From: Porodaedalea pini
Lineage: Eukaryota > Basidiomycota > Agaricomycetes > Hymenochaetales > Hymenochaetaceae
Assembly (NCBI GenBank): GCA_002794775.1
Contig: NBAY01000048.1
Span: forward strand, 248,001-312,000
Length of the DNA stretch: 64,000 bases
Reading direction: 5' to 3'
Below are positions 3,806 through 64,000 of this stretch, one piece after another. The notes beneath the pieces were generated by a model. It had not been told where the DNA came from. It searched no databases and saw nothing but the letters and a program-made list of their open reading frames with translations. Within the stretch, counting starts at the first letter, position 1, and the number at the start of each line of letters is the position of its first letter. Both the position numbers and the translations under genes were made by a program.

Positions 3806-4392
3806 TTGCGGGATCGGTCGAAGATAAGTAAAGTTGTCTCGGTAACACACCACTCAGAGGACCATACAGTCTGGAAGGCAACACCTTCGTGGTTAAAGAA
3901 TTGGAATATTCGCCTGACCCTAATACCTCCTCACATACCCATGCTGGTCAACTCGCAAGCCAGCCTCATTTACTCATTGGCCAAATGGTACCGACAAATT
4001 GCTCTTTCATCGACCCTCAACCCCCAGGCCCCATCCTTTCAGCCTGCTGTGGCACTTGAGACCGAACTTGCCTTTTACGCTCGCCGCCCGCCGGCTATTT
4101 CCATTTTGAATTATGACGCCATACATAACATCACGTACATATGCCTCCCTCCCTTTTTCAAAGCTGTCAACCCATATGACTTCCTTTATGACAATCTTTT
4201 TGAAACAGAGGATATTATTTCTCTCTTTCCTCTTGAATGGTATATACATATTACACGTCCACCCATCCATCGTCGCTACTTACATAGCTTTTAAACTTTA
4301 CACGCCCTGACATGGGCAGTCACGCATTCTTACCAGTTTTTTTTTCCATCCCTCCTTTTTTTTTCCTTTTTTTGTCGCTAGTAGTGTTGTAG
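3806..4392. other. no supported gene; one unconvincing 162-codon frame
   Basis: A plus-strand frame at 3806-4294 is open for 162 codons. It shows no domain, no intron logic and no recognisable motif, and it lies between the LTR-like stretch and a TIR element. I treat it as non-coding or element debris. Confidence 0.3.
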
Positions 4393-4400
4393 TGCAGAGT

Positions 4401-5137
4401 TAGGGACTACAGTGGTATCCGTCCGCACTTATCCACATCCGCACCGCGGATGGCTATCCACGGATGAAATTCCCATAGATACCACGGTTTTTGCAGATGA
4501 ACTGCGACACTCTGCCAATGTTCGATCCCTGCTCAGGCAACAAATTTTGAGAGTAATAAAAGTCATTCACAATGTTCATTTTTGCCAATTCATAGTCAGA
4601 CTGAATAATTAAAACACACAATGTGACCATTAACTGTTTACTATTAATTCTAAAGGATGAATTAGGTATGAAAGATAAATGTACATGGAAATGATAAAAG
4701 AGGTATGAGAAAATTTACCACAGAGGTGTGAGCATGAGACTTCTGTGTTCTGAATGTATACCATCACATTACTGTGCCACATAAAAGGTAACTTGGTGAC
4801 AGTGGAACATGGGAGTTGAAGGACCTGGTGTGACAGGCACTGTGGGATAGAAAACCCCCTTTATATGAGTGTTGAAAGGGCATGAAGGAGATGTTTGAAA
4901 CATAGAATATAAATTTATAACAGGGTAGATATATCCTTTGATGATTATGAGATGAAAATATTAATGCTAAGGAGTGTGGACAGTGAGTGATACTGTGACA
5001 CAGCATAATGCACAAAGTGACGCGCCCATCCGCAAAAACCGTGGTATCCGTGGGAATTTCATCCGCGGATGTGGCATCCGTGGGAACGTCCATCCGCGGT
5101 GCGGTGCCGCGGATAGGGCCATCCACTGTAGTCCCTA
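4401..5137. mobile_element. MITE-A copy 1: 737-bp non-autonomous TIR element, 8-bp duplication
   Basis: The ends are inverted repeats. The left begins TAGGGACTACAGTGG and the right ends with its exact complement. Imperfect inverted similarity continues for about 100 bp, with runs such as GCACCGCGGATGG and GAAATTCCCA. Perfect 8-bp direct repeats TGCAGAGT flank it (4393-4400 and 5138-5145). The interior has no convincing ORF. An 8-bp duplication and short TIRs fit a hAT-type non-autonomous element; the superfamily is inferred. A related 161-bp element lies at 8966-9126. Confidence 0.85.
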
Positions 5138-5320
5138 TGCAGAGTAGTGCAATATTACAAAGACTGATGCACGTGATCGCGAGCGTTTCTGCCAGATTCG
5201 CTCCGCTCAACGAGTCCCAACAGTCAAGGCTCTCTTTGCAAATATTCAAACGAAAAGACTTCATGTCTGCAAAGGTACGTCAACTGTTCCCCATATAGAA
5301 ACCGTATGAAAATATAACTG

Positions 5321-6393
5321 ATGAAGATATCAAAGCGATTCGCAGGGCAAGCTTTTTGCAACTCAAGATGTTGGCACGGGCCCAGCGTTTCCCAAGCAGC
5401 ACGTATACGCAAGTCACGACTCTCAACAGTATCTTCAGCAACTTCGTCTGTCAATCAAGAGGAAATTCAGTTCTTTTCACGACTATCATCTCAGTGGTGG
5501 GATGAAACAGGCGAGTTTGGGCTGTTGCACAAGATGAACCCAGTGCGGGTACAATTCATACGAGACAAGCTTCTTGAGAGCGCACGCGACGATGGACTCG
5601 ATGCCGAAGGCGACAGAAAACTCAGCGGAAAGATTCTGGATGGACTTGACATTCTGGATGTTGGCTGCGGAGGAGGGCTGTTGTCTGAGGTGAGCAAAGT
5701 CCGGTTTTGTGAGGTGCATCCTGAGTTAACAGCAAGCAAAGAGCCTAGCACGGCTGGGAGCAAGGACTTTAGGTGTCGACGCATCGTCTTCAAACATTGC
5801 TATTGCGTCTCTCCATGCATCGCAAGACCCTGCCTTAAGTAAGTCGGCTCGGTCCGCTCTCGCCTATCGGAATACGTCAGCAGAGGAACTCGTCGGCGAG
5901 GCCACACGCTTCGATGTCGTGTGCTCAATGGAAGTTTTGGAGCACGTTGATAATCCGGCAGCGTTCATCCGGTCCTGTGCTGACTTAGTGAAGGTACATT
6001 GTTCGTACATGCTTCACTTTGTTACAAGGCTAAACGATACCTCAGCCTGGCGGGCATCTCTTCGTTTCGACAGTCTCACGCACCCCACTCGCGTACTTCC
6101 TCACCATTTTCGCTGCGGAGAAGCTGCTTCGCCTCGTCGAACGCGGCACACATTCTTATGACAAGTACGTCAAGCCATCTGAGCTCGTTGATTTCTTTCG
6201 GAGGCCGTTGGGAGACACCGAACGACCGTGGATATCAAATCTGCATGGTGGCGTGCCGCCGCGCCGTGAAGCGGAGGTACGCGGAGTAGCTTTCTTACCA
6301 TGGAAGGGCTCTTGGGAGCTGGCTCCGCGTGGCGCGTTTGGATCAACAGAATGCAACTATTTATTCTGGATACGGAAGCCGCTACCTGCCTGA
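5321..6393 (+). CDS. COQ3: ubiquinone biosynthesis O-methyltransferase, mitochondrial
   Basis: join(5321..5689,5733..5993,6046..6393), 325 aa, all junctions GT-AG. COQ3 uses S-adenosylmethionine for the two O-methylations of the ubiquinone head group on the matrix side of the inner mitochondrial membrane. The first about 45 residues are rich in Arg and Ser and poor in acidic residues, as in a mitochondrial presequence. The UbiG/COQ3 signature WWDETGEFGLLHKMNPVR follows at about residues 59-76. SAM-binding motif I is LDVGCGGGLL at about 112-121, then LGVDASSSNIAIA, the acidic-loop motif FDVVCSMEVLEHV, and the C-terminal STVSRTPLAYF block. The protein ends NYLFWIRKPLPA. No frame damage is seen; a normal single-copy housekeeping gene is likely. 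Confidence 0.93.
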
Positions 6394-25444: not shown

Positions 25445-25620
25445 TCTTATGATAATACTGTTTATGCAACTTGAACTTATTTACTTATGACTTCACTTGT
25501 TTACTCACATGACTATTACTTCCTACTTGTTATAGTATGCTATTCAATTGTACTGTATATAAGGACGGGCATTCTCGCCCCTAATCTATAGCTTTGTCCC
25601 ACTTTTCTGCTCGTCTAAGA
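25445..25620 (+). repeat. Copia-B 5' LTR
   Basis: 176 bp, with promoter-like GTATATAAGGACGG near 25555. Identical to the 3' LTR except for a 6-bp GAACTT extra and about two transitions. Confidence 0.95.
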
Positions 25621-25640
25621 GGTTATGAGCCTTGGCTCCC
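25621..25640 (+). other. Copia-B primer binding site, initiator-tRNA type
   Basis: GGTTATGAGCC directly follows the LTR. It is complementary to the anticodon loop GGCTCATAACC of eukaryotic initiator methionine tRNA, which is the half-tRNA priming known from Drosophila copia. Copia-A has the same site. Confidence 0.7.
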
Positions 25641-25668
25641 TCCTACTCATTGCACTCCTCACTATTGC

Positions 25669-28600
25669 ATGTCAGACCGTCCTCCTCATTCACCAACACC
25701 ACCACTACCAACTACTCCTAAACCAACTACTAGCACTCGTCCTCGCACTCGTGCACAAACACAGGGTGAACAACTAGCCGCAACCACTAGTGGTACTACT
25801 CAAACTCCTACTCCACCCACATCTACTGCCACACCAGCGCAACTTGAGTGCGACTTTGAACAAACACTACCGCCTATACCAGAGCGCGTTACTCCACCTA
25901 CTGAATCATCAGAAGGCGAACTAACTGATCCTACTACAGTGCCGCCTACTCGCACTCAGCGTATTCCCCGCCGCGAATCACCAATAATGTCAGCACTAAA
26001 AGCGGGTGAAATTATCAAATTATTTGATGGCATCGAACCACTCGACGGTGTCAAAAACTGGAAACTCTGGATATTCTGCATCTTCCAGGCTATCAATGCC
26101 ACTGGCCACCCAACTCTCATGGAGGCAGGGCCATCCAGTCCAGAAGAAAATGCCATTGCGAATGCCATCTATGCGGGTGTAATCAAAAACATCCCTGACA
26201 AAATACTCGGCAACTACTTAGGCGTAACTCAAGTACACGTCCTACTGAAACAACTAAAGGCGCGTTACGACATTCAAACCACAGTAACTAACGCATTAAA
26301 TGAAGGAGCATTATTCAACATCCGAGGCCATGTGTCCCAACTTGATAAAACTTTGGACGAACTCAAACGACGCCACGCTGAACTTTGCACTCATGGAAAA
26401 CATCCAGCCGACTCAACTTACTTGGCAGCGATAACTGCGGCAATACCACCGCAATATAAATATGTTATAACTCAACTTGAACTTCAAATAAACACCGTGA
26501 ACGAATACAATAAAACTAACGATGACCACGAGGATCTTGTACTCACTCCCAACCGACTTATTCAAGAAACTCGTCAGGCTTTTGCAAACTGGAGCGCGGC
26601 AAACACTCGAAGGAACCCAATCGCCGCCGCGCACCCTTACCAAAGCGAGGCTACTCACCCCTACTTTAGAGGGCGAGGCGGACACACTCGAGGTCACGGC
26701 CGAGGCCGTGGCCGATTTGGAACTTACAGAGGCCGAGGACGTGGCTGCGGAGGATACTCAAATAACTCCGATAACTCAAACTCGAACTCAGGGAACTCTA
26801 ATCCCTTTGTTAAATGTTATAACTGCAATAACTACGGGCATCAATCACCTAACTGCCCTCAGCCGTGGACTCAGAAAACTAAAGATGCCATGGCAAAGAA
26901 AGGGATTCAGGAGCACGCAAAACCTCTGACCACTGCCCACTCGCATCAGGCGAGCACGTCGAATGCGGCAAACATACCTATGACCGCTTCCACTTCCACT
27001 GCAGTCGCTCAAGCACACCAGGCGACAAACATCGAAATGCCCAACTTTCCTCAGATGCCACCGTTTACTGCAACAATAACTGAAGTACCCGATGACGTTA
27101 CTATGCAGTTTGACAACAAATCTGCACTTTTCGACTTTCTACGCGACGATCACTACATGGATGCTATTGAAAATTTTGAGGCGAATCATGTAAGCGCCAC
27201 AGCCATTTACTTAAAAGAAAATTATGCTAATAAACTTTATCATACTATGGATATCATTGATTCTGGCGCCACTCTTCACTTAACTCCTTATTTCAACCGA
27301 CTTACTAATGTTAAACAAACTGACCCTATCTCTGTTATAACCGCTAACTCACAAACTTTTATTACTTCAACTATAGGGATTTTAACTGTTGAGATCCCGA
27401 ATGGTGATACTGTAAGCACCATTACTATTAAAGATGTTTATTATGCTAAAGAAATGCACATGACACTACTTAGCCAGTCTAAACTTTGCGCAGAAGGATA
27501 TGAATTTATTTATAAAGGAAATTTGTGTACAATAAAGGCACCTAGTGGTGAAATATGCAGTCAAATTCAATGTAAAAATAACCTGTACTCTATATTAAAA
27601 TATTACCAAATGAGCACTGTAAAATCAATTACTTTGTTCGAACTTCATAAGAAACTCGGTCACTTAAGTTATACTTACCTCAAATGGCTACTTAAAAATC
27701 ATCCTGAATCAATCCATTACAAAATTACTGACTCAACTGAAACTCAATGTTGTGTTTGTGTCGAAGCAAATATCAAAAGAAATGTTATACCTAAAACTCG
27801 AACTTCTGAATTAGCTAAAAACTTTGGCAATCATTTTCATATGGATATTTGGGGACCTGTGCCGACAACTGCTATTGGAAATTTTAAATATCTGTTAACT
27901 TTAGTCAACGACTGTACTAGATGGGTCCAAATGAGTTTACTTAAAACTAAAGTGGATGGTTATACTGCTTACATTAAATGGGCTACTTTATTATCAACTC
28001 AATATGGAATTAAAATCAAAATACTTCAATCTGACAATGATACTGTCTTTTTATCAAATGACTTTCAACTCTTTTTAGACAGTCAAGGAACTGTGCGAAA
28101 ACTAACCGTACATGATACTCCACAACAAAATGGTGTAGCTGAGCGAACTCATCAAACAATACTAAATCAAGTTAGATCAAATTTACTAGGACATAAATTA
28201 CTGAATAAGCTCTGGGGAGAAGCCGTTAACTACTCAACTTTTATACATAATAGAACACCTAAAGCAGCAATTAACTTTATCTCTCCATACTTTAAGTGAT
28301 TTAATAAAGCTTATATTTTTGATAACTTACATGAATTTGGCACTCACGTCATTTTCAGAGAAGAAAACACTAATAAACTAACTCCCAAAGGATCCTATGG
28401 CCGATGGCTATGTTAGGATGAAGAAAGTAAAGGACATAGAATTTACCATGATCAGAAAATAACTGTTGAAAGAAATGTCCAATTTCTCGAAGTCGCACCT
28501 TCTCAAATTGAAGGGGAGCAAACTGATACCCCACTAGAAAACAATCAAAACAACCCTACTGAAACTACTGAACCAAGAAGATCAGAGCGACAAAGAAAAC

Positions 28601-30285
28601 CAACTAAATGTTCTAGAGGACTAGACTATACTGAAGAACTTAACCTCACTATTTACCTAACTGAATTCAATGAATTCAATAATGAACAACTTGGCGACCC
28701 CATCACTTTCCAACAAGCAATTAAGCGACCAGATGCACTTAGATGGGCTAAAGCCATGAAAGATGAAATTGAAACACTAAAAGAAAGACAAACTTGGGAA
28801 TATGTTTACCCACCTACTAATGCGAATATCATTGGCACTAGATTTGTTTACAAAACTAAACGGTTAGCCGATGGCCGAATTGACAAATACAAAGCAAGAT
28901 TAGTTGTGCAAGGATATGCACAACAAGAAGGAATTGATTTTTACTCAGATGACTTATTTGCACCAGTAGCACGACTTAGTACTGTGCGAACTATACTTTC
29001 CTGGGCAGCAACTAATGACTATGAAATACATCAAATAGATATTAAATCAGCCTACTTATATGGTGAACTAGAAGATGATGAAGAAATTTATATCAAACCA
29101 CCACCAGGATACAATAAACTATTACCTGACTTAAAACCTGGACAAATACTGAAACTAAAGAAAGCATTATATGGACTTAAACAAGCAGGAAGACGTTGGT
29201 ACAAAAAACTAATGTTGATCTTAACTAAAATAGGACTAACTAGGTCAGACAATGACAATGCAGTCTTTTTCAAAACAAAAAATAACAAAACTATACTTGT
29301 ATTATTTGTACATGTCGATGACATTACAATAGCTGCGAAATCAACTCAACTATTAACTGAACTAAAAACTCAAATTGGAAATGAAGTTACTTACACTGAC
29401 GGAAATGAAATTCACTGGTTACTTGGAATTGAAATTAAGCGTAACCGTCAAACTAAAACTATAGTGTTAAAACAACAAAACTATATTGAAACTATTATCA
29501 AACACTATAATTTAGAAAATGCTAAACTGAAGAATTCTCCCATGGAGCCAGGGAGACAATTATCAACTGATGACGCACCAGCCGATGATGAAGAACTTAC
29601 TTACATGGAAAAGGTACCTTACATGAACATGGTTGGAGCACTGCGATATGCAGCAGACTGTACCAGGCCAGATATTGCCTATACATGTGGAATACTCGCG
29701 AGATATTTAACTAACCCTGGTATTAAACATTTTGACGCCGCAAAACAATGTTTTCAATACTTACACTCAACTAAAGACTATTGGCTCATACTCAGCGGAA
29801 CTGAAAATACTCAACTTACTGGATACACTGACTCTGATGGAATGACAACTGAAGGGCATAAAGCCATATCCGGATACTTCTTTAAACTTGGCAATTCAAT
29901 AACATCATGGTCAAGCAAAAGACAAACTTTAGTATCATTAGCCATAGCTGAAGCTGAACTTATTGCACTAGCCTATGCGACTCAGGAAGCTATTTGGCTA
30001 AAAAGACTTGTGAATGAGGTTCTGCAGGCTTTGTTTGCACCTACTACAATCTTTACTGATAATCAAGCTATTATTACTATGGCAACTGATCCTGAGCGTA
30101 AATATTCTCAAAGAACTAAACATATTGACATACAAAAAGATTTCTTTAGAGATCACATTGATAAAGGAACTATTACTGTTAAATACATCCCCACTGAACA
30201 TAATATTGCTGATTTACTCACTAAAGCACTTTCAGTAACTTTACTCAAGCGCTTTGTAGAACAACTTAGACTAACATGCGCTTGA
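25669..30285 (+). pseudogene. Copia-B gag-pol polyprotein with two in-frame stops
   Basis: A single frame from ATG 25669 to the stop at 30283-30285, broken only by TGA 28297-28299 and TAG 28414-28416. Domains in order: copia Gag, a GRG-rich linker, zinc knuckle CYNCNNYGHQSPNC (about 26815), protease IIDSGATLHLT (about 27253), GAG-pre-integrase, integrase with FHMDIWGP, LQSDNDT and GVAERTHQT giving the D,D,E triad, reverse transcriptase with the active site HVDDI (29311-29325), and RNase H with GYTDSDG and FTDNQAI. Both stops fall between integrase and reverse transcriptase. An upstream in-frame TTG at 25594 lies inside the LTR, so ATG 25669 is preferred. Confidence 0.93.
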
Positions 30286-30292
30286 AGGGGAG

Positions 30293-30462
30293 TCTTATGA
30301 TAATACTGTTTATGCAACTTATTTACTTATGACTTCACTTGTTTACTCACATGACTATTACTTCCTACTCGTTATAGTATGCTATTCAATTGTACTGTAT
30401 ATAAGGACGGGCATTCTCACCCCTAATCTATAGCTTTGTCCCACTTTTCTGCTCGTCTAAGA
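30293..30462 (+). repeat. Copia-B 3' LTR
   Basis: 170 bp copy of the 5' LTR, preceded by the polypurine stretch GAAGGGGAG and followed by the CAAGT duplication. Confidence 0.95.
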
Positions 30463-30892: not shown

Positions 30893-30905
30893 CTGCGTAC
30901 CTCTT

Positions 30906-31098
30906 GTTGGATTACATAATCCTACAGCTTATATAAGATTATAACCATGCAAAACTACCTATGTGTACAAAAGCCTCTGAGTTTATATCTTAAAAGCTAA
31001 CCTTGGAGTACTGGCTGGATAGCTCAGTTGGTTCAGAGCACTCAGGAGGTCCTTGGTTCAATTCCAAGTCCAGCTAGTATACTTTTCTATATGTGCTG
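30906..31098 (+). repeat. dispersed repeat carrying a tRNA-like segment, copy 1
   Basis: 193 bp that match, in reverse, 59447-59651. Shared edges are GTTGGATTACATAATCC and TATGTGCTG. A tRNA-like part lies at 31013-31075. TACCTCTT precedes it and TACCTCTC lies 4 bp after its end, possibly a target duplication. Confidence 0.8.
31013..31075 (+). tRNA. tRNA-like pseudogene lacking part of the anticodon arm
   Basis: Acceptor arms GGCTGGA and TCCAGCT pair. The D arm GCTC-AGTTGGTTCA-GAGC contains an A-box-like sequence. The T arm CTTGG-TTCAATT-CCAAG contains a B box. Compared with the copy at 59470-59543, 11 nt of the anticodon arm are missing, so no anticodon can be assigned and it cannot be functional. 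Confidence 0.55.
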
Positions 31099-31371
31099 CG
31101 AATACCTCTCACAATGTTGCTTGATGTTGGGTTGTTGTGTGGAATCGGGAACATTGGTGGTGGTGAATGTGACTGTACACTCGCACTCGGGAAACGTGGT
31201 AGTGACATACCATCACTAAAGAGTGCTGGTGCAGGCATTGATATTCACTGTGTTCTCAGTAGATCTGACAGTATGAGGTCAGGTGCTATAACGTAGTATA
31301 GTGTAATCTGGCAATATATGTGATTAGTTTATCCGTGTGAAGTTTTTGTCAGATCTGAATTTAAAGCCTGG
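31099..31371. other. no gene recognised
   Basis: About 270 bp of non-coding sequence between the tRNA-bearing repeat and MITE-B copy 2. Confidence 0.4.
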
Positions 31372-40216: not shown

Positions 40217-40658
40217 TGTTAGGTGGGAGTCCGGGAGACGGCTCGGACTGGGCAGGCCTCAGCTGACTGTCATCTGGGATGTGTTATACTTGAGCAGGGA
40301 CTCGGGACATGCTATACTCAGGCTAGGTCATCACGGAGGTAAGAGGATTAATACAGTGTACTCTACTACAGGAGGGGGGACACGGTCTCACCTAGGCCGT
40401 CACGGAGGTAAGAGGAAAAGCAGAACAGGTGTTCAGATGCAATTCCTCTTCCTTATATACAGTGATCACCTCATGAGAACCGGTTGCCCAATTGTCTAAG
40501 ATTACATAAAGGGAGCAGAATGGAACAAATGAAGGTCAGGTGTAAGGGGGTGCGGGAAATGATTGAAAAGATGCTTAATTATAATGAAAAGGAGCAATTA
40601 AAAGAAAAGAAAATAGTAAAAGGGAAAATAAAAGAAGGGAAAAGTTCGAGTCCTGACA
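40217..40658 (-). repeat. Gypsy copy 1, 5' LTR
   Basis: 442 bp match to 34386-34827 with scattered, mostly transition, differences. No clear tRNA primer site is visible just inside it. Confidence 0.93.
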
Positions 40659-40663
40659 AATTG

Positions 40664-41006
40664 CCAAGTTCAAAATGCTCAAGTATGTCAATGATATACT
40701 GGCACTAAGATATGGACAAAGAGTGCTGAGAGCAATCACGCTCAATGTGAACTCCCAAGAGGAATGAAGTTGGCCCAAGGTCATGTAGCTTGAAGTGCTT
40801 CTCCAACTCACTCATCACAAACTGGTACTGCTCCTTCGACTTTGCAGCAATGGTCATGTCATCAACATAGACAGGAATGATAATGCACACATCCTCTCTG
40901 CGATAGACCCATATGCTGTTGTCGCAGCGTACCAGTTGGAAGTCCATATCCTTCAATACTGAATCGAGTTTCTTGTGCCACTGGCGTCCAGCCTGTTTCA
41001 GTCCAT
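40664..41006 (-). pseudogene. Copia-A reverse transcriptase, catalytic part
   Basis: Reads NGLKQAGRQWHKKLDSVLKD, then IIPVYVDDMTIAAKS with the YVDD active site and LGPTSFLLGVHIERD, open on the minus strand. It lies between Gypsy copy 1 (left) and the gene-fragment element (right), which cuts the codon series KSIY|GLKQAG; the other side is at 47130. Confidence 0.9.
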
Positions 41007-41502
41007 TACGATTACTGAGTTTACGAAGTATCGTCTTTTGTTGTGGGCCAATTTTTGGAGCCCGATTTGGGTTTTTGTCAGCTTCATAAGCTGATTGCAT
41101 ACCATATATGTTAATTTTGGACCCCATTTCTGCTAAATTGAGCAGTGGCGATGAAGTCGTTCACTGCTTTTGTGGCTGTACAGTGCTCACTTTCTTCATT
41201 GACATATTTAATTTTATGCAACCATCCAAATCTCAAGCTTGAGGCATGTAAAAAAACTTCAGACAATTCACTATCTGTCTATATATTTTCTGTAAAATAA
41301 AGTGGCCTGGTTGAATTAAAAATCGGTCGAAAGCAGAGTTGACGACAGTGCCAACATGTGATCTCCAACCTGCCAGTGGACGGTCTGTTTTGCTGCAGCA
41401 AAGACACTTGCTTCGCTCCCTCCACTTGAGCTGAATCGTCTCCTTCACTTTTCTCTTGGGCTTTCTCTGCTTTTTTCTTATTCACACAACATCACTGCTT
41501 CT

Positions 41503-41935
41503 CATGGTAGCCGTCCTGTCACAGCTGCCTGCCTGCCCACCCGCGCTGCTCGAGGCAACGAAGAGGTCGATGACAGCATGGCAAGAGGACCTCCAATTGC
41601 TCTTTCATCGCACGAAAGATTGCTTCCCAGACGTCGTCTGGGATCTAATGGATGAGGACGCGATGGACGAAGGCAGCAATGCGGACTCGGAGGTTTGGGG
41701 ACATAAAGGTGAGCACAAGCGCAGAACCTTCCACCTGTCCTTGAGACCAACAGATGCTAGCTATCGTTTATGCTCGTGCACTATTCAGTTTACAGGCATG
41801 CTATTTCTCGTTCCACCCGGCACCTATCGCGTCCCCACTTCCTTTCGCTGCCTCTCAGACACCGTCTCTTCCAATGCCGACGACATCTGCACTCTCTTTC
41901 AACCTTGGCATTGAGTTCCCCTACCTGTCCTCCAT
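41503..41935 (+). pseudogene. captured fragment of a BTB-like protein gene
   Basis: Exon MVAVLSQLPACPPALLEATK ... DSEVWGHK ends at a GTGAGC donor (41709). The next exon begins after CCAACAG (about 41754) with MLAIVYARALFSLQACYFSF. The H-K-x-I-V-Y-A-R-A pattern across the junction resembles basidiomycete BTB/POZ proteins. Assignment is tentative; the fragment ends before eIF4G begins. Confidence 0.4.
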
Positions 41936-42007
41936 GCGCTCCACTTCACCTTCTCAATTCCGGCCTATCTCCCCTGCGCCCGCTGTATTCGGCTCCCTCA
42001 CGCACAT

Positions 42008-43045
42008 ATCTCTCAACCATAATCCCGCTTGGACCGCTCGACCTCTCCTCAACTCACAAATCCATCCCTCAACCTCTCCCATCCGCCCTTGCTACCGCTC
42101 GCCACATCCAAGATGTTTACCAGGTCCGGTATCCGGAAGGCATCAAGAATCCCAAGCCAGAGCTTAACACGAACACGAAGGATGGCAAATTCCGGTTCGT
42201 ATTTATTGTCTCGCTTTCTTTCCATGACTAACAAGTTAACACTATATTTCTGCGATTAGCTATGATCGAGACTTCCTTCTCCAATTCATGTCCGTGTGCA
42301 ACGAAAAGCCGTACAATCTCCCTCCTCTTAAGGCTATCGGTCTCGAGTCATCCGACCAATCGCACTCTATGGGACGGGGTGGCTCTGGACGCCGAGGTGT
42401 ATCTGGTAGTATGGGCCGGCCATCTTCCACTGCTTCAAGGCAAGCATCGATTGGGCTTGGCATGGGTGCTTTGAACGGCTTCGGCGGCGAACCTGGTTCA
42501 GGCTTTGCGATGGGCAACTTCTCTGCACCGAACAAACTGTCAAGTGAAGAGCGCTGCATGCGCTCGACGTCGATGAGCGATGAGCCCGGTGGCCTTCCAT
42601 TAGCAAGCGGGCGCCCATCGCCTATTGTTCGCTCTTCCAGTCAGGATGGCGCGGGCGCTTTGGGCAACAAGTGTACGCGTAGCAAACGTGGCGACTCAAC
42701 ACGCAACGAGTCAAACCGAATCCGCGCTTCTGCCAATCAGTTCAACACGAATGCTGCTTCCTCCGTCGAACCTGTCGCGCCGCTCGAGCAGTCTGCGAAC
42801 CGCTGGGTCGTGGGGAGCGTGTCCAGGCGTGGGGCCTCGAATGACCCAGACCCACCCGAGATCGCGGACAAGAAGGTCCGTTCGCTGCTCAACAAGCTCA
42901 CTATGGAGAAGTTTGAGTCTATCTTAAACCAGATCATTGTGTGGGCAAACAAGAGTGAGAGCGAGAAGGATGGGCGTACGCTTATTCAGGTCGTCCGGCC
43001 TGTGTTCGAGAAGGCGACGGATGAGGCGGCTGGAGTAACCCTGTC
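42008..43045 (+). pseudogene. captured fragment of translation factor eIF4G
   Basis: Two exons with the intron kept (42195-42258). They carry [37 protein letters not shown], a Gly/Ser-rich linker, and the start of the MIF4G domain ([20 protein letters not shown], then [20 protein letters not shown]). It stops within MIF4G, where PRP8 sequence begins. Known role of the intact protein: scaffold of the cap-binding complex. This piece lacks both gene ends. Confidence 0.88.
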
Positions 43046-43059
43046 TCCTCTCATGGTTT

Positions 43060-45553
<2,494 letters not shown>

Positions 45554-45555
45554 GG

Positions 45556-46884
45556 AAGTGAATCCCGTTTGGCTTCAGGCATCGCACACTACCTCACTTT
45601 ACGAAGGATGACTTCAGCCCAGAGACGCGCGGTTTCGTTGAGAACTCGTATCTTCGTGGAGTAACTCCGCAAGAGTTTTTCTTCCACGCTATGGCTGGTC
45701 GCGAAGGTTTGATCGATACCGCTGTCAAGACGGCCGAGACTGTTTACATTCAGTGTCGACTTGTAAAGACACTCGAAGACGTGACTGTCTGCTACGACGG
45801 GACTGTACGAAACTCACTGGATGACCTGATCCAATTCGTGCATGGCGAGGATGGTATGGACTGTGCTTTTATTGAACGGCAAACGATCAAAACGTTCGGT
45901 ATCAATGATCGCGAGTTCGAACATCGCTATCGGGTCGACGTCACTGACCCGAAGGGTGGATTCCTTCCTGGTGTTTTGCAAGTCGGTATCGACGACTCAT
46001 CCCGCGAGCTCCGGCAAATACTCGACGAGGAATACGATTGTCTTCATGAGGATCGTAAATTGCTCCGTGAATTCATTTTCTCGGGCCGTGACAATTCCGC
46101 TGCCCACTATCTTCCTGTCAACCTGAACCGCATCGTGCAGAACGCAATGCAGAATTTCCATATCGACCGCAGAAAACCGAGCGATCTGAGCCGATTTACA
46201 TTATTGAGCAGGTGCAGTAGCTGGCAGACCGCCTCATCGTTGTGCGCGGCGATGATCTTTTAATAAAGGAGGCTGCCGAGAACACTTCTCTTGCATTCCG
46301 CATACACCTTCGGGCGACTTTTGCCGCGCGTCCAGTCCTAGAGGAGTTCCATCTCAACAGAGAAGCATTTGACTGGGTTTTGGGCGAGGTGGAGACGAAG
46401 TTCAACGAGTCGGTCGCTCATCCGGGCGAGATGTGCAGCACACTCGCTGCCCAGTCGATCGGTGGGCCGGCGACGCAGATGACACTAAATACCTTCCATT
46501 ACGCCGGTGTTTCGAGTTAAAACGTCACGCTCGGTGTGCTGCGTCTTAAAGAAATCATCAACTTCGCCATGAATATCAAGACTCCGTGTACCTGGACCCA
46601 GAAATTGCTGCTGTCGACACGAGGGCCAAGTCGGTGCAAACAGAACTTGCGTACACATCGCTGCGTACCGTTACAGCGGCGGTTGAGATCTACTACGATC
46701 CTGATTCAAGTACGACGATCATTGAAGAGGATAAGAAGTTTGTTGATGCATTCCTCGCCATCTCCGACGAGGAAATTGAGTCGGGTCTTCATCTTCAGTC
46801 GCCATGGCTACTTCGTCTTGAGCTCGGTCGCTCGAAGATGCTTGACAGGAAACTTACAAACGTTGCTGGTCGTATTACGGAAAG
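45556..46884 (+). pseudogene. captured fragment of RNA polymerase II largest subunit RPB1
   Basis: Begins [20 protein letters not shown], then [71 protein letters not shown] (normal subunits have SIGEPATQM), LRLKEIINFA, and ends at MLDRKLTNVAGRITESFA. A TAA at 46518-46520 and several frameshifts disable it. It lacks both ends and the heptapeptide tail. The next sequence belongs to the CAP-Gly-like gene. Confidence 0.92.
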
Positions 46885-46953
46885 CTTTGCCATTGCCGAA
46901 AATGCCATCTAAGGAAAATATCAACCTTGAAGATCCTCCCAATACAGGCAGTA
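46885..46953 (+). pseudogene. start of a CAP-Gly-like gene fragment, cut by MITE-C
   Basis: About 70 bp reading [19 protein letters not shown]. The same text follows RPB1 in the copy at the right edge ([18 protein letters not shown]), where the gene continues. Here it stops at AGTA, where MITE-C begins. Confidence 0.7.
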
Positions 46954-47129
46954 CTTGAGGTAGTGGGCCATTAGGATGGCAAGCTACGATTACTGTTTTC
47001 TGTGTCTTTCATCATATGAGAGGACTAAAGCTTGCAAATTATACTAAAATATTATTCTCATTAGTGAATTATTTAGTATTCAGTAAATAGTAATCGTAGC
47101 TTGCCATCCTAATGGCCCACTACCTCAAG
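46954..47129. mobile_element. MITE-C copy 1: 176-bp TIR unit, TA on both sides
   Basis: Terminal inverted repeats of about 45 bp, CTTGAGGTAGTGGGCCATTA and onward to GCTACGATTACT. TA at 46952-46953 and 47130-47131. No coding. Closely matches 62235-62412. Confidence 0.85.
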
Positions 47130-47678
47130 TAGATAGACTTTACTAGCTTAAGAACAAACCCAGCACCATAATACTCCTCAAACCCTTCAGGCTGGTCCAT
47201 GTAGACATCATGATCTATCTCACCATTGAGAAAAGTGGTGGAGATGTCTACACTGTAAAGCTCAAGGTCCTCAAGTGCAGCTATAGCCAGAATTGCACGT
47301 AGTGCTGCCCACTTTGCAGTTGGTGCAAACACCTATGAAAACTCCAATCCTAGGCACTGTGAGTATCCCTTTGCAACCAGTCTTGCCTTGTACCTGTTCA
47401 CAGAGCCATCTGCCTTGCACTTGAGTTTGAACACCCAGTGACAACCAATAGTCTTACGACCAGTTGGAAGTCTGACAGGCTGGAAAGTGCCATTCTCAAT
47501 CAGACTGATGAACTCTTCCATTGCAGCCTGTTCCCAAAGATGGGCATTAGGGTGCCCCTTGATATCCTTCTATTGGTAGGGCTCTGGACCATATTGCTTG
47601 CGCACTTCTGCAGAGAATACATGCTCAAGACGATTTGTAGACTTGAAAACATAGTCAAATGCATCATCAAAAGCAATG
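47130..47678 (-). pseudogene. Copia-A reverse transcriptase, N-terminal part
   Basis: Reads MEEFISLIENGTFQPVRLP, TIGCHWVFKLKCKADGSV, VFAPTAKWAALRAILAIAAL and YMDQPEGFEEYYGAGF, ending KSIY at the insertion point. TAG codons interrupt at about 47334 and 47570. The right side is cut by Gypsy copy 2 (duplication CAATG 47674-47678). Confidence 0.9.
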
Positions 47679-48050
47679 TGTTAGGCGGGAGTCTGGGAGA
47701 CGGCTCGGACTGGGCAGGCCTTGGCTGACTATCGTCTGGGATGTGCTATACTCGAGCAGGGACTCGGGACATGCTGTACTCAGGCTAGGTCGTCACGGAG
47801 GTAAGAGGAAAAGCAGAACAGGTGTTCAGATGCGATTCCTCTTCCTTATATACAGTGATCACCTCGTGAGAACCGGTTGCCCCATTGTCTAAGATTACAT
47901 AAAGGGAGCGGAATGGAATGAATGAAGGTCATGTGAAAGGAGTGTGGGAAATGATTGAAAAGATGATCAATTATAATGAAAAGGAGCGGTTAAAAGAAAA
48001 GAAATGGTAAAAGGAAAATGAAAGAAAAGGTGAAAGTTCAAGTCCTAACA
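47679..48050 (-). repeat. Gypsy copy 2, 3' LTR
   Basis: 372 bp, TGTTAGG...CCTAACA on the plus strand; the pyrimidine run CCCCCCCTC just inside is the complement of the polypurine tract. Confidence 0.93.
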
Positions 48051-57779: not shown

Positions 57780-59446
57780 ATATTATGGATGGAGAGGTCT
57801 GGAATTCTATGGAGACTGCTAACAGCGATGATTTTTTTAGTCTCAGTCCTCAGGACGAGCTTCGGCTCGCCCTTGTTCTTCTCTTTGATGGGTAGGTTTT
57901 TTTTCTTTTCTTTTCTTTTCTTTATTGCTTTCATTTCTCCTTCTTTTAGCTTCGGCGGTGAGGGAGGGAAGAATGGACCAACCTACAGCTCCGGAGTCCT
58001 CTCGCACTGTATCGCAAATCTGCCGGTGCATCTAAAGTGAGTCAGCATTCATTTATTGAGTATAATTAACTATGGTATCTTAGGTATCAGCCCCACAACC
58101 TTCTCCTGACGGGAATCGTACCTGGTCTGAAGGAAGCGACAGCCGACGAGCTCCAGCACATCCTCAAAGTTAATATAGACAAAAAGATACGCCTCTATGA
58201 GGAGGGTATCGTCGTCCCTACACCAAAGTATCCAGGAGGTAAGCTCTTGATACTCTCTATATCCCAGACTCTGACTCTCTTCGGGAGACAGGCCGTTTAT
58301 GTTGAGTAGTGTGCATAGCACATTGCTGCGACCATCCTGCCCTCTGCCGTGTCAATGGACTTGCAGACCACGCCTACATGCTCTGCTTCTGCCCTCGTTG
58401 CAAAGCAAAGCGTAAGGAGCTCTACACTAAGAAAGGCATGATGAACGGTAAGTAAATTAGTGCCTCTTATTTTATTTAATTAATATATGTATTCTATAGA
58501 TTTTCCACCGTGTACCACCACTGAACATTGTGCTCACTCCGATGAGTATCGAGATGCAGATCCAGATGAATGGGAGGCACTTTTCAAGAAAATCAGCATG
58601 CATTATGCTGAGTGTACGCGCCTCCCTTATTACAATCTGATTACAATGGGTGTGCTAGACCCCATGCACAATATTTTACTTGGTAAGTCTCTTTTGTTTT
58701 CTTCTTAAATGCACATATAGTTACTAATTTTTGTTCCAAGGTGTCTGCAGGACGCAATGGCTCAATGCATGGATTAGGCAGGGCGTCCTCCGCAAATGGA
58801 TGGCCAAGAAACGTCAGGAACTCAATAAGATACATTCGAAATGTAAGCTTTTATTAAGTATGCGACTCGGACATTCTTACGACGTGATCTGCTCCCAGTT
58901 CGAAATGCCATCGTGGGTCGGCCAACTACCTCGTGAGGTTGGATACCCCGCTGGCGGCTCACTCTTGGCAGACGAGTATAAGACTCTCGTCTTAGTATAT
59001 TGTCCAATAATAGTAAGTATTCTCTATTTTATATTTAATTAAATTTACTTTATTTTGTTTAATTAGATCCCGCTTATCTGGCAGGAATGGCAGCCACGAG
59101 CTCAAGTCGAGTTCAAGCGATGAATGCACCACTGGGAGTCGAAGGAGCAACAGCGACTCCAGCACATCAAGGAAGGCACCACAAAAGAGGATGACGAGAA
59201 GCCAGCCAAGAAATCGAAGCCTGTTCATATGCAGGCTGGCGATTCCGCCAACTTTCTCAAGCCTGCCACAGCTCTGAAGATCATTCTCGGCCACTCTGTC
59301 AGAGTTGCCAATATTCCTCACACGGAGAGGCTTCTAAAGGAGTACCTACATGATTATCTTGAGGTACTTGATGTTTTTTTTTTTGAGCTTCTATACTAAA
59401 TTTAATAAACAGATGCATCTGTCTTGTGTAAGGCCTAATCTATTTA

Positions 59447-59651
59447 CAGCACATATAGAAAAGTATACTAGCTGGACTTGGGATTGAACCAAGGACCTCC
59501 TGAGTATATACCAGATGCTTTAAACCAACTAAGCTATCCAGCCAGTACTTCAAGGTTAGCTTTTTAAGATGTAAACTCAGAGGCTTTTGTACACATAGGT
59601 AATTTCGCATGGTTATAATCTTATATAAGCTGTAGGATTATGTAATCCAAC
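59447..59651 (-). repeat. dispersed repeat carrying a tRNA-like segment, copy 2
   Basis: 205 bp, reverse of 30906-31098 and about 93 percent alike by eye. It interrupts the transposase after MHLSCVRPNL. Confidence 0.8.
59470..59543 (-). tRNA. full-length tRNA-like sequence (anticodon position TAT), likely nonfunctional
   Basis: 74 nt that fold as a tRNA: GGCTGGA/TCCAGCT acceptor, GCTT/AAGC D arm, TCTGG/TCAGG anticodon stem, CTTGG/CCAAG T arm with TTCAATC loop. The anticodon loop TATATAC puts TAT at 34-36 (isoleucine) but has A at position 33 instead of T, and the stems carry wobble pairs. It lies in a repeat inside a dead transposase, so a tRNA-derived repeat is more likely than a working gene. 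Confidence 0.5.
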
Positions 59652-60459
59652 ACATGAGTCTATATTTCCCCTCTGATTGTCTTATCATTGGAGCCAGAGA
59701 CAAAGTGTGCTAAGGAAAATAATGAATTACTATTCTTACAGGTGACAAGCCTTTCTCTCTTGGTCCAGTGGTTATGAAGAGGCTTTCGGAGGGGCTCCAA
59801 CAGCCTCTGCTCGAGTACTACCAAGAGACGCATCCAGTGGCTAACGTCATATCACGAACTTTGCATCTGACTGATGCCTCCAATATCCTATTGGCGCAAG
59901 CTGAGTTCCACTCGTTTCTCATCCTTGATGGCCACCGCATCACCCCTTCCACCAGGGCTTTGCATGCTCTGAACTCCATCGTTCAGATGGAGCTTGATGG
60001 CAACCTCTTCGCCAGCCAGGTGATCAGTATCCTCTCTCACACACAGAACCGTATCACCGGGCCCAAAGTATTCTTGCATATCAAATGGTTCCGCCCCCGA
60101 GAAGATATTGACATGAGCGAATGGGACCCTTAGTAAGTCAATTAATTTTCTTATCTATTGCTTTACATGCTAACTTCTTTTATTCACGTACAAGCCTGCA
60201 ACTTGAAGTGAAATTCTGGGTATACAATGACTATATATGAGCAGGTGAAGAAGGACCACCCAATTTAATCCCCCCTTCCCTCATCAGGTCCCAGGCCTGT
60301 CGCGTATCAATAAGTCTTCCACATGCTCTCATATTGGCACAGGAAGTTGGGGAGGTGGCAGGAGAGGGAGAAGGAGAAGAGGAGAAGAAAGATGAGAATG
60401 AGGACAAGGACAAGGACAAGGATGAGGATGAGGACGGCAAAGGAGATGACACTGATTGA

Positions 60460-60814: not shown

Positions 60815-62234
60815 CTACTCGTTCTGCAAGCCGCTTGCCTCTCCCTTTCTTGTTCCAAATCCAATAGGGTCCTGGTGATGAATCTTGAGGTCACGTTCGA
60901 GGATTGTTCCCCTGATGTGGTCGCTGAACCAGCCTTTGTCTTTCATGAAGGGGAATATCATGCGGTTTGGCAGGTTTACATCAATGTGTTCAAGGTTGAT
61001 TCGCTAGACCGACAGATACGTCCTCTGAGATGCAGACCTGCATGTGATATGAAGCTCGTCAAGAGCTTCATAGACTTGATTTACCTACGGAAAGTGAGTA
61101 GGAATTTATTATAAAGAGAAAAAAAAAACTCACCTCCTTCGAACAAAAGAGCTTTGTGACCTTCTCCCAGGCCTTTGCTCCCTGCTGTACTTGGGCCGTG
61201 ATAAGTCCTGCTTTGGCACAGAGCATCACCTGGTGCTCGACCTTCTTGATCTCATCGTCGGTATCAAGGGAGCTCATGAGATCCAATATCCAGTCCGTCA
61301 GAAGAAGTGGAGTTGGATCGGCTCCATATTGTACGATGTAAGTGTCAACTTCTGCAAGCCAATCACTCTTTTTCTGAAATTATATAGTCAGCTGATGATC
61401 AAGAGATACACAAGACAGCAAAGGGTATCTTACCTGCTGACAGTGCTGAACACGCTGGTTCATTCGCTTCCGCTTCTTCAACCTCTCTTTAACCGCATTG
61501 TCAACCTGCGCTCTGTAGTTGGTCCTCCAGGTACGTAACACGGTCTTCACGAACTCATGAAGGTTGTCTCTTGTGTATGCGATGTCTGGGCTCCGAAGGA
61601 CTCTCTTTGCTTTGTCCTAAAGGTACATTCATCAGCACATATACTAAGGTTTTCAGCTGATTTACTTACTTTCTGTTCCAGGTCAACAATTTTTGCAGCC
61701 TGCTCAATGAGCCGAATGTTTGTGGCATCGGTGACCTCTGCCTCGAGGTTTGGCACAAAAAGGAGCTTGCCCGTTTTGTCCACTTGCTCACCGGAGGATT
61801 CAGGCCCAGGTAAGTCTTGCCCTGGCTTGATTCTGGACAAGTCTTCCATCTCATGTTTAATTGCAGCCTAAATTTAATTTAGGTGAGTTTTTTTTTAGCT
61901 GAGCATTTACGGTTGTAGGGCATACCAGCAGGGCCTTTTGGGCCTCTTTCCCGTCATGGTCGAGTGAGTTGGACTCGACTCCGAGTATCAGGACCTGACC
62001 GGACTTTTTCCCTCCTCGCTTCCTCTTTCTGGGCCGTGTCCCACCCTCTCCCTTGTCATCTGCATCCTCATCGGCATTTGGGAGTTGGTTTTCCAACTGG
62101 GCAAGCTGTGTCATAAGCTGATTGAGATGCTCAGACTGGTGCTCCAGTTGGGCTTTCTTTCACTGGTCTTCGGCAGAAATGCGTGCTAGCATGGCTGAGA
62201 GGGCCTCTTTGGTGCTCGGGCCAGGTTCAGAGGA
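60815..62234 (-). pseudogene. second gene of the tnp2 element (coiled-coil, basic), damaged
   Basis: Minus-strand multi-exon gene. Exons in order: KSSEPGPSTKEALSAMLARI, a Gln/Leu-rich coiled coil, a basic nuclear-signal-like RPRKRKRGGKK, MEDLSRIKPGQDLPGPESS, TNIRLIEQAAKIVDLEQK, an Arg/Lys-rich exon ending RVQHCQQ, LLLTDWILDLMSSLDTDDEI, and a last exon ending GFGTRKGEASGLQNE with stop at 60817-60815. TGA near 62160 disables it. The 5' end is cut or bordered by MITE-C copy 2. Such a partner gene beside tnp2 is common in fungal elements; its role is unknown. Exon edges are approximate. Confidence 0.5.
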
Positions 62235-62412
62235 CTTGAGGTAGTGGGCCATTAGAATGGCAAGCTACGATTACTGTTTACTGAATATCAAATGATTCAC
62301 TAATGAGAATAATGTTTTAGTATAATTTGCAAGCTTTAGTCCTCTCATATAAAATGAAAGACGCAGAGAACAGTAATTGTAGCTTGCCATCTCAATGGCC
62401 CACTATCTCAAG
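62235..62412. mobile_element. MITE-C copy 2: 178-bp TIR unit
   Basis: CTTGAGGTAGTGGGCCATTA...mirrored at the right end, about 90 percent like copy 1. No TA duplication is visible (GA left, TT right). Confidence 0.8.
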
Positions 62413-62884
62413 TTCTCTTCTAGGTAGCTTGATTGGACTCTAGTTATGTAACTACATATTATTGCCTTATTCATCATGCCTTCATTATATTACTATTATA
62501 GCACTGACTATGTGTCCAATTGAAATGCAATGCACAACTCATCTGTACAACTCATCTGTGTGCTAACATACTCCAAAATGACTTCTAACTTATTGCATGA
62601 GGCACAAGAATGCTGTTTGTACAGAAACTGAACACAAATGTACTAACTAAAAAACCGACAGCATTCAAATCCTGATTAAAATTTTCAAAAGGTGCAATTC
62701 GAGAATCCAGAGCAATCTGATTGAGTAGATAAGAGAGGAATATGAATGAACATGCCAACAAGTGATTTCGGTGATGAGGGCATCTGCCCAGAGCAAGGAG
62801 TGACTAAACATGGGAGTAGGGTAAAAGAAAGAAAGAAAGAAAAAGAAAAGGAGCAGGAATCCGAACTTAAATATGTTCCAAGAT
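62413..62884. other. A/T-rich stretch without recognised features
   Basis: About 470 bp between MITE-C copy 2 and the CAP-Gly-like fragment. The GAAAGAAAGAAAGAAA run near 62830 is a short simple repeat. Confidence 0.4.
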
Positions 62885-63635
62885 TCACAAGCCCGAACCG
62901 ACAGCATCTACAACATACAGCACCTGCTGTGGCCTCACAAAGAGACCTCGATACTCCACGTTCGACACGTCCGACACTGACGGTGACGTGCTACGGAAAC
63001 GCTTCTTGCGGTCAACGCTGAGCTGCTCCCCCTCGCGCTTTGTGCCCTTCCAGCCACTAATAATGCTAGTTCCATAGTTATTCATCAAATCAACATGTTG
63101 CCGGCGGGTCATGCATCGGTCGTCGCCCCATTCCGATGCCAAAGTCCAGACGTCAAAGTAGCGCACGCCACCCCATGAGCCGTCATTCCACTGGCGGCCC
63201 TCGAGCTGATCGTCTGCCCAGTCATCGCCCACGGGCACCTCGACACCAACCCATGGCCCGCTCTCACCCTCAACCTCGCCGATATAACGGGCAAACGCAT
63301 GGAACCGCTTCCGCTTTGAAGTAATGATACGTGGAATGCCGATGTCCAATGTAGCACCACAGGGTTGCAGCATGACCGTCTCGCCTGCAGACACCGTCTC
63401 CCCCGCAGGTACTCGATTGAGGGTAATGGTGTCATTCGATTCCTTGTGCCGCAATGTAGCGAGAGTTGTATTTGATCCGGTGTCGCTCGATCGCAGAGAT
63501 CTGTCGTCTGCGATGATGGCATCCACCCGCCCTTTCCCCTTCCCCTTCCCTTTAATCGTCAATGTACTACCTGTACTGGGAGGATCTTCAGGGTCAATAT
63601 TTTCCATAGATGGCATTTTTGGCAATGGCAAAGCT
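62885..63635 (-). pseudogene. captured CAP-Gly-like gene fragment
   Basis: Open for about 250 codons on the minus strand: [18 protein letters not shown], a KGKGKGKG run, then a CAP-Gly/SH3-like fold with YIGEVEGESGPWVGVEV, WNDGSWGGVRYFDVW and a C-terminal GLFVRPQQVLYVVDAVGSGL. CAP-Gly domains bind C-terminal EEY/F motifs of tubulin and partners. It is fused directly to RPB1 sequence at about 63635, exactly as at 46885. Confidence 0.65.
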
Positions 63636-64000
63636 TTCTGCGATACGGCCAGCAACGTAGTTCATCGTAAGTTTCCTGTCAAGCATCTTCGAGCGACCGA
63701 GCTCAAGATGAAGTAGCCATGGCGACTGAAGATGAAGACCCGACTCAATTTCCTCGTCGGAGATGGCGAAGAATGCTTATCCTCAATGATCGTGGTACTT
63801 GAATCAGGATCGTAGTAGATCTCGACCGCCGCTGTAACGGTACGCAGCAATGTGTACGCAAGTTCTGTTTGCACCGACTTGGCCCTCGTGTCGACACCAG
63901 CAATTTCTGGGTCCAGGTACACGGAGTCTTGATATTCAGGCGACGTTGATGATTTCTTTAAGACGCGGCACACCGAGCGTGACTTTTTAATCAAAACACC
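63636..64000 (-). pseudogene. captured RPB1 fragment, second copy (runs off right edge)
   Basis: Minus-strand RPB1 sequence with VYLDPEIAGVDTRAKSVQTE and LRTVTAAVEIYYDPDSSTTI, shifted out of frame by a 16-bp deletion after ATTGAGGATAAG. It shares with the 46-kb copy the deletion that joins AAGACTCCG to TGTACCTGG, so both come from one ancestor. Confidence 0.88.

Follow-up and report, generated by a model that had tools for sequence, protein, structure and literature searches.

Fragments of eIF4G, PRP8 and RPB1 carried head to tail by a probable Helentron-like element of Porodaedalea pini

How do pieces of several unrelated host genes, with introns retained, come to lie head to tail inside a retrotransposon, and do they travel as one mobile unit? 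The question is raised by a 64,000-nucleotide stretch of the Porodaedalea pini genome (GenBank assembly GCA_002794775.1, contig NBAY01000048.1, positions 248,001 to 312,000; G000:C48:248001-312000 in our numbering), hereafter the window, for which we searched the genome of 53.3 Mb in 201 contigs. A 6124-bp insert at window positions 41006-47129 splits a minus-strand Copia reverse-transcriptase gene (Table 1); its left boundary lies one base further out than the 41007 given in the original prediction. We consider that the insert probably belongs to a family of non-autonomous Helitron2/Helentron-like (HINE-type) rolling-circle transposons with serial DNA-level capture, for which an autonomous Rep-helicase partner is inferred.

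The mobility of the segment, as originally predicted, is borne out by an exact empty site and by a family with about 100 copies of each end. Joining the two flanks of the insert yields CTGTTTCAGTCCATAGATAGACTT, which has 36 genomic copies (up to 3 mismatches) representing the empty site, while its reversed control has none. The window copy shows neither duplication nor loss of target bases between the host A at 41005 and the host T at 47130; the position of the joint is ambiguous by one base, since the element itself starts with T. The insertion inside a retrotransposon is likewise confirmed by the interrupted reverse-transcriptase gene, and Copia is merely the insertion target, not the vehicle. 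Misassembly, which the original prediction had named as a possible refutation, was rejected as very unlikely, given the copies on many contigs and the 36 empty-site copies.

The genome-wide search for copies, termini and target duplications revealed two distinct termini. The tip pair of the family consists of 5' TTACGATTACTG and 3' CCTCAAG, with 113 genomic copies of the 5' tip and 99 of the loop of the 3' palindrome (up to 3 mismatches each), and five aligned copies of the 5' tip have five unrelated outer flanks. The 3' palindrome folds as a single long hairpin (z -16.4, for a sequence one base shorter). Moreover, the two ends share an asymmetric inverted repeat of 10 nt, its outer copy one nt inside the 5' tip and its inner copy 31 nt inside the 3' tip; of 20000 random sequence pairs of the same size, 9 had a repeat at least that long. 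The nearest 3' end lies 5.4-9.2 kb downstream for 49 of the 100 listed 5' tips and within the same range upstream for 7 (100 of the 113 5' tips and all 99 loops were used, duplicate loci included, and the range was picked post hoc), with distance classes of about 5.5, 6.1, 7.6 and 7.8 kb. Host T adjoins the 3' end in 10 of the 11 insertions having an uninterrupted reference (the window, L002, L005 with one of its two references, L009, L013, L016, L017, L018, L022 and L032; L027 is ambiguous), and the base on the other side is variable. Canonical Helitron1 elements have 5'-TC and 3'-CTRR ends and insert strictly at A|T; the tips TTACG and CAAG and the N|T targets found here depart from that pattern. 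Eight further 5' ends were paired to known 3' flanks, and six of these pairs had a reference for the target. For one of these elements, C75:162784-170297, which interrupts another Copia, the empty site is exact (T|T) and 58 of 60 flank bases agree; lack of duplication is also supported by the C25 element, which lies in a Gypsy, at 39/60 ungapped flank identity, a value equalled by none of 500 shuffles.

Both Pack-type TIR (terminal inverted repeat) elements and Helitrons had been proposed as precedents for the locus; the Helitron part appears to hold, in its Helitron2/Helentron-like form, and the Pack-TIR part is disfavoured by the unlike ends and the missing duplication of the window copy. 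It could still be argued that the 176-bp palindrome is a miniature inverted-repeat transposable element (MITE), two flanking copies of which mobilise host DNA as a composite, Pack-MITE-like TIR element. The single-hairpin fold suits this view, as does locus L063, which is bounded by inverted palindromes. Nevertheless, the window and C75 copies have the palindrome at one end only together with exact empty sites, the insertion comparisons made showed no target duplication, and in none of the 30 palindrome loci L001-L030 do the two flanks match a single uninterrupted stretch of window sequence. On this last count we set aside the idea of the 3' unit as a solo MITE, with L063 still in its favour, and we judge the composite TIR element unlikely.

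Several observations weigh against the Helentron-like assignment. The stem-loop at the 5' end scores no better than shuffled sequences do (z -0.77). Among the additional end pairs, the C7 element gives only a weak flank join that needs gaps, and the flanks of the C26, C42 and C3 elements do not join with the reference; perhaps their two ends are mismatched and do not form one element. The C41 and C1 elements, which have no reference, share the 5' outer flank but differ in the 3' outer flank. At L063 the palindrome occurs at both ends, inverted and 96% identical over 184 nt, and the joined L063 flanks have no empty site genome-wide within 3 mismatches. At none of the eight genomic loci with Rep_N (PF14214) coding sequence was a Rep-helicase bounded by the exact ends of the family found. 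Finally, judging from the accessible text of PMC4067079, the palindrome of 176 bp compares with 5-10 bp in HINE, and the repeat of 10 nt located one nt from the tip with 12-15 bp and two to four nt in Helentrons.

Among plant elements, maize Helitrons and Pack-MULEs carry several intron-bearing gene fragments head to tail and have been amplified, the former with canonical ends, the latter with TIRs and target duplication. The family described here resembles both in multi-fragment amplification but differs from the former in its ends, from the latter in its ends and in target duplication, and from both in host kingdom. Helitron2, Helentron and HINE elements are described, in the available parts of both sources, as having asymmetric inverted repeats, end palindromes and T-side insertion into an unmodified target, with repeats of 12-16 bp at a distance of some 20-60 bp from the 3' tip (PMC4067079, PMC5148889). 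Like Helentrons and HINE/DINE-1, our family combines a subterminal asymmetric repeat, a 3' palindrome, T-side insertion, an unmodified target and fragment capture; unlike them it has many core-gene captures, and the endonuclease-bearing partner of Helentrons is here only inferred (PMC4067079, as far as its accessible text goes). The gene fragments that the same text lists for Helentrons are two from histones in Culex and one gene in Phytophthora. The FoHeli Helitron2 elements of Fusarium oxysporum are also fungal and possess asymmetric inverted repeats, with the 3' repeat about 20-40 bp inside and termini confirmed by pre-insertion sites, but they have other tip sequences and short hairpins; their open reading frame orientation varies among subgroups, and the sections available report 27 putative capture events and no important role for them (PMC5148889). 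Similarly, HELPO1 and HELPO2 of Pleurotus ostreatus share with our family a mushroom genome, the lack of target duplication, a similar size and carried genes, yet they insert at A|T and have near-canonical ends, and the intact elements, according to the available text, lack P. ostreatus gene fragments, whereas here the parents reside in the same genome (PMC4289320). In their accessible portions, the fungal Helitron surveys report little or no host gene-fragment capture (PMC4289320, PMC5148889), and among the papers listed on fungal Helitron capture, with most subscription journals out of reach, none describes a PRP8/RPB1/eIF4G assembly in its title or the opening of its abstract.

What, then, does the element carry? 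The fragments of eIF4G, PRP8 and RPB1 follow one another head to tail along the plus strand, with joint overlaps of 0-3 nt, and every captured gene runs in the same sense as the element. PRP8 is recognised by the Pfam domains PROCN (E 2.6e-43 and 5.5e-48) and RRM_4 (E 1.9e-44), and RPB1 by Rpb1_6 (E 5.7e-33), Rpb1_5 (E 1.4e-26) and Rpb1_7 (E 1.3e-26). Aligning the fragments to parent genes, as had been suggested, identified a PRP8 parent at L061 (C12) 6532-3950, 92.6% identical over window 43036-45547, and an RPB1 parent at L062 (C5) 4246-5605, 92.3% identical over window 45545-46887, and allowed the joints to be mapped; the parent PRP8 aligns in blocks with seven public PRP8-type proteins, changing frame at introns. 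The intron at about 43536-43586 is present in the PRP8 parent and in all 13 distinct aligned copies, four near-duplicates having been excluded; since this intron is kept, the capture took place at the DNA level, as originally claimed, and retroposition of the genes was rejected. The eIF4G stretch 42091-43035 matches C33 in two places at 91% identity and measures 947 nt there versus 945 nt in the window; because the lengths are nearly equal, the eIF4G intron is presumably also present in C33. Hence, of the retained introns claimed earlier, that of PRP8 is seen in the parent and that of eIF4G is supported by length.

The identity of eIF4G rests on protein matches, since by Pfam alone the signal is below the cut-off (23.6 and 20.2 bits). 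With the eIF4G-PRP8 reading frame as query, MIF4G-domain proteins are matched with identities of up to 69%, 58% of the query being covered (the best 120 of 916 matches, MIF4G and PRP8-type together). The best named protein matches obtained for the locus, from Phellopilus nigrolimitatus (69%, with this frame) and, in a separate search, Hermanssonia centrifuga (49%), are from mushroom-class fungi, and none is close. Read onward past the joint, a C33 copy continues with MIF4G profile positions 51-84, the window covering 2-49; at 26.5 bits, this short piece scores below the cut-off. The original prediction counted five host genes; four donors are recognisable here, eIF4G, PRP8, RPB1 and the CAP-Gly piece. 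The CAP-Gly-like fragment holds in so far as about 68 bp of the gene are present, but the domain itself is lost from the insert and is found at 62885-63661, in the second copy. The BTB-like label did not hold: the hand-spliced product of that module has no Pfam match, and window 41430-42031 proved to be shared family sequence, matched at 90-100% in all 40 scored places (the best 40 of 108 candidates). Some genomic places with this module have none of the listed 5' tips nearby, and its parent might be one of them; among the best 40 candidates scored (of 108 for the BTB-like part and of 54 for the CAP-Gly part), parents could not be distinguished from copies. The CAP-Gly part of the second copy, window 62880-63640, is matched at 100% by C15:3429-4189.

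Table 1. Features of the insert, its target gene and a second family copy in the window
Feature	Position	Strand	Evidence
Copia reverse-transcriptase target, downstream half; host A adjoins insert	40644..41005	-	PF07727 E 1.1e-18; empty site
5' terminus, TTACGATTACTGAGTTTACGAAGTATCGTC; outer inverted-repeat copy one nt from tip; weak stem-loop	41006..41045	+	
Family-specific 5' region	41046..41422	+	Common at least partly to L024, L026, L039, L063; by eye L064
Recurrent family module (earlier label BTB-like), identity unproven	41423..42031	+	Genomic matches, no Pfam match
eIF4G fragment, 4E-binding region end to MIF4G start; left limit approximate	42032..43035	+	
PRP8 fragment, PROCN to RRM_4, introns kept	43036..45547	+	Parent match, Pfam, intron alignment
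RPB1 fragment, domains 4-7; overlaps PRP8 by 3 nt	45545..46887	+	Parent match, Pfam
CAP-Gly-domain gene piece (about 68 bp, upstream of domain)	46887..46954	+	89% to corresponding piece of second copy
3' terminus, 176-bp palindrome ending CCTCAAG; inner inverted-repeat copy ends 31 nt from tip	46954..47129	+	
Copia reverse-transcriptase target, upstream half, frame stop-interrupted; host T adjoins insert	47130..47680	-	Empty site; translation
Second, inverted partial copy: 3' palindrome, CAP-Gly piece with domain, RPB1; runs beyond window	62231..64000	-	

The joints themselves record how the family spread. A search with the whole segment gave 478 candidate genomic places, the best 36 of which were scored. 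Among the 20 best-matching loci, the window included, the PRP8-RPB1 joint has an identical position in 16 and the eIF4G-PRP8 joint in 9 (up to 2 mismatches of 16 nt); these loci were picked by similarity to the window and some are near-identical duplicates, so that the counts are not independent. L042 also shows the eIF4G-PRP8 joint by alignment. As many copies have these joints at identical positions, the joints were copied along with the element. Other members, in the stretches fetched, differ in content: in L037, L038, L040, L043 and L044 PRP8 extends further upstream (to 7661) and eIF4G is missing, in L042, L046 and L047 PRP8 extends further downstream with an internal deletion and RPB1 is missing, and in L049 and L050 the RPB1 pieces are rearranged. 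The palindrome is joined to the CAP-Gly stretch at several distinct points, as would be expected were a lodged 3' end to act as the new terminator. CNOT1 pieces adjoin the palindrome in L021 (PF16415, E 8.5e-90), whose sequence recurs at 99% in L022 and L023, and in L003 (PF16417, E 3.3e-45).

Segmental duplication or recombination in repeat-rich regions could be thought to have spread the cluster with no transposition of its own. Indeed, the outer flank is common to L004 and L024, to L005 and L008 and to L014 and L016, several copies lie near contig ends, and PRP8 is 99.7-100% identical within L032-L034, L043/L044 and L046/L047, so that duplicate or haplotype copies inflate the counts. However, exact empty sites of individual elements within retrotransposons already contradict this explanation, and different flanks stand behind the same joint: ten loci sharing one inner CAP-Gly/palindrome joint have seven different outer flanks. 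Hence, we regard it as very improbable.

The divergence of the copies from the PRP8 parent and from one another is consistent with a star-like pattern: copies are 94.7-96.6% identical to the parent, gaps set aside, and 92.5-95.9% to one another (99.7-100% for duplicates). Differences at codon positions 1, 2, 3 and in the intron amount to 5.7, 6.6, 7.6 and 4.6% between copies and to 3.7, 3.9, 5.7 and 4.1% between copies and parent; the excess at the third position is only mild, so that coding constraint on the copies is slight, and the reading frames of the captured fragments are broken. In the window copy, L032 and L037, C-to-T changes are raised at CpG (3-4% of CpG versus about 1-2% in other contexts), a rise in three of the four copies examined that would fit methylation; in L042, C-to-T at CpC is as high as at CpG. 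These four copies gave no indication of classical CpA-type repeat-induced point mutation. Of the two lineages, eIF4G-PRP8 and PRP8-RPB1, the four copies scanned for recombination lean towards one near the left end of PRP8 and towards the other near its right end; with only five informative sites, L035 and L036 switch between lineages, and the window copy and L032 do not.

The nature of the donors invites a functional reading. The suggestion that they act in core gene expression or the cytoskeleton agrees with eIF4G, PRP8 and RPB1, and with CNOT1 elsewhere in the family, genes that together cover transcription, splicing, translation and mRNA decay, and leaves aside the unconfirmed BTB-like piece; among the recognised donors the CAP-Gly gene is the exception to gene expression. 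We do not claim a donor bias, as the donors are few and long conserved genes are the easiest to hit and recognise. Since Copia runs on the opposite strand, antisense transcription across the fragments would be possible, and one may imagine that the fragments are retained for an effect of their RNA on the parent genes, as small RNA or decoy, for the benefit of host or element. The prevalence of core gene-expression donors and the CpG C-to-T rise would accord with this; on the other side, the broken frames and the almost equally hit codon positions imply no coding role, and the donor choice may just reflect the long conserved genes mentioned above. We therefore consider it very unlikely. Also quite improbable is a hostage or camouflage effect, whereby small RNA silencing the element would hit the parent genes as well, so that core-gene capture would be selected on the element; if true, the element would be shielded by pieces of RPB1, PRP8, eIF4G and CNOT1, genes whose silencing the host can ill afford. 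The sequence provides no evidence for a function of the captured fragments.

As regards the Helentron-like element and its putative partner, a Rep-helicase acting in trans would nick the 5' end, and copying would run to the first palindromic 3' end met, after which the strand would be inserted. Palindromes lodged at various CAP-Gly points could thus serve as alternative 3' ends, fragments may be captured via end-bypass or filler-DNA repair, and the captured fragments behave like near-neutral passengers. The presence of Rep_N coding sequence at eight genomic loci counts in favour of the Helentron-like assignment. In six of the eight Rep loci a 5' tip of the listed set lies within 20 kb downstream in opposite orientation, which is suggestive only. 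The C77 and C79 palindromes beside a Rep-type Helitron gene were considered as an autonomous partner and rejected, as they look like nested insertions: the L009 palindrome is inserted in sequence that is uninterrupted in L021, where the palindrome lies about 420 bp further upstream. L009 (C77:156317) and L021 (C79:17277) lie at separate positions within the same Rep-type Helitron gene, with flanks 98.5% identical over 1080 nt. A frame of up to 355 aa also occurs near the palindrome (L018 1663-2682, L029 1725-2789, L026 1-361), apparently antisense to the captured genes in L018 and L026 and on the outer side in L029; it has no Pfam match and one distant homologue (27%), and is a possible remnant of an autonomous element.

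Together, about 100 copies of each tip, the parents and the intermediates (PRP8, RPB1 and CAP-Gly breakpoints, alternative 3' ends) are offered by one genome. Capture, joining and 3'-end replacement could thus be ordered within a Helentron-like family, and donor bias becomes testable.

Other repeats were also found in the window and beyond it. The eIF4G piece from window 42516 onward (42516-43035) recurs in a second dispersed repeat, with 26 further scored places at 87-89%; the only one read, C17:179185-179704, continues with in-frame MIF4G beyond the joint of the window and has a different left break, which suggests that another repeat family captured eIF4G independently. Window 30905-31104 and 59441-59652 form inverted repeats about 28 kb apart (92-97%), each with a tRNA-like sequence, and window 25474-30462 holds an apparently young Copia, with 147-bp end repeats 99% identical and open frames of 904 and 622 aa.

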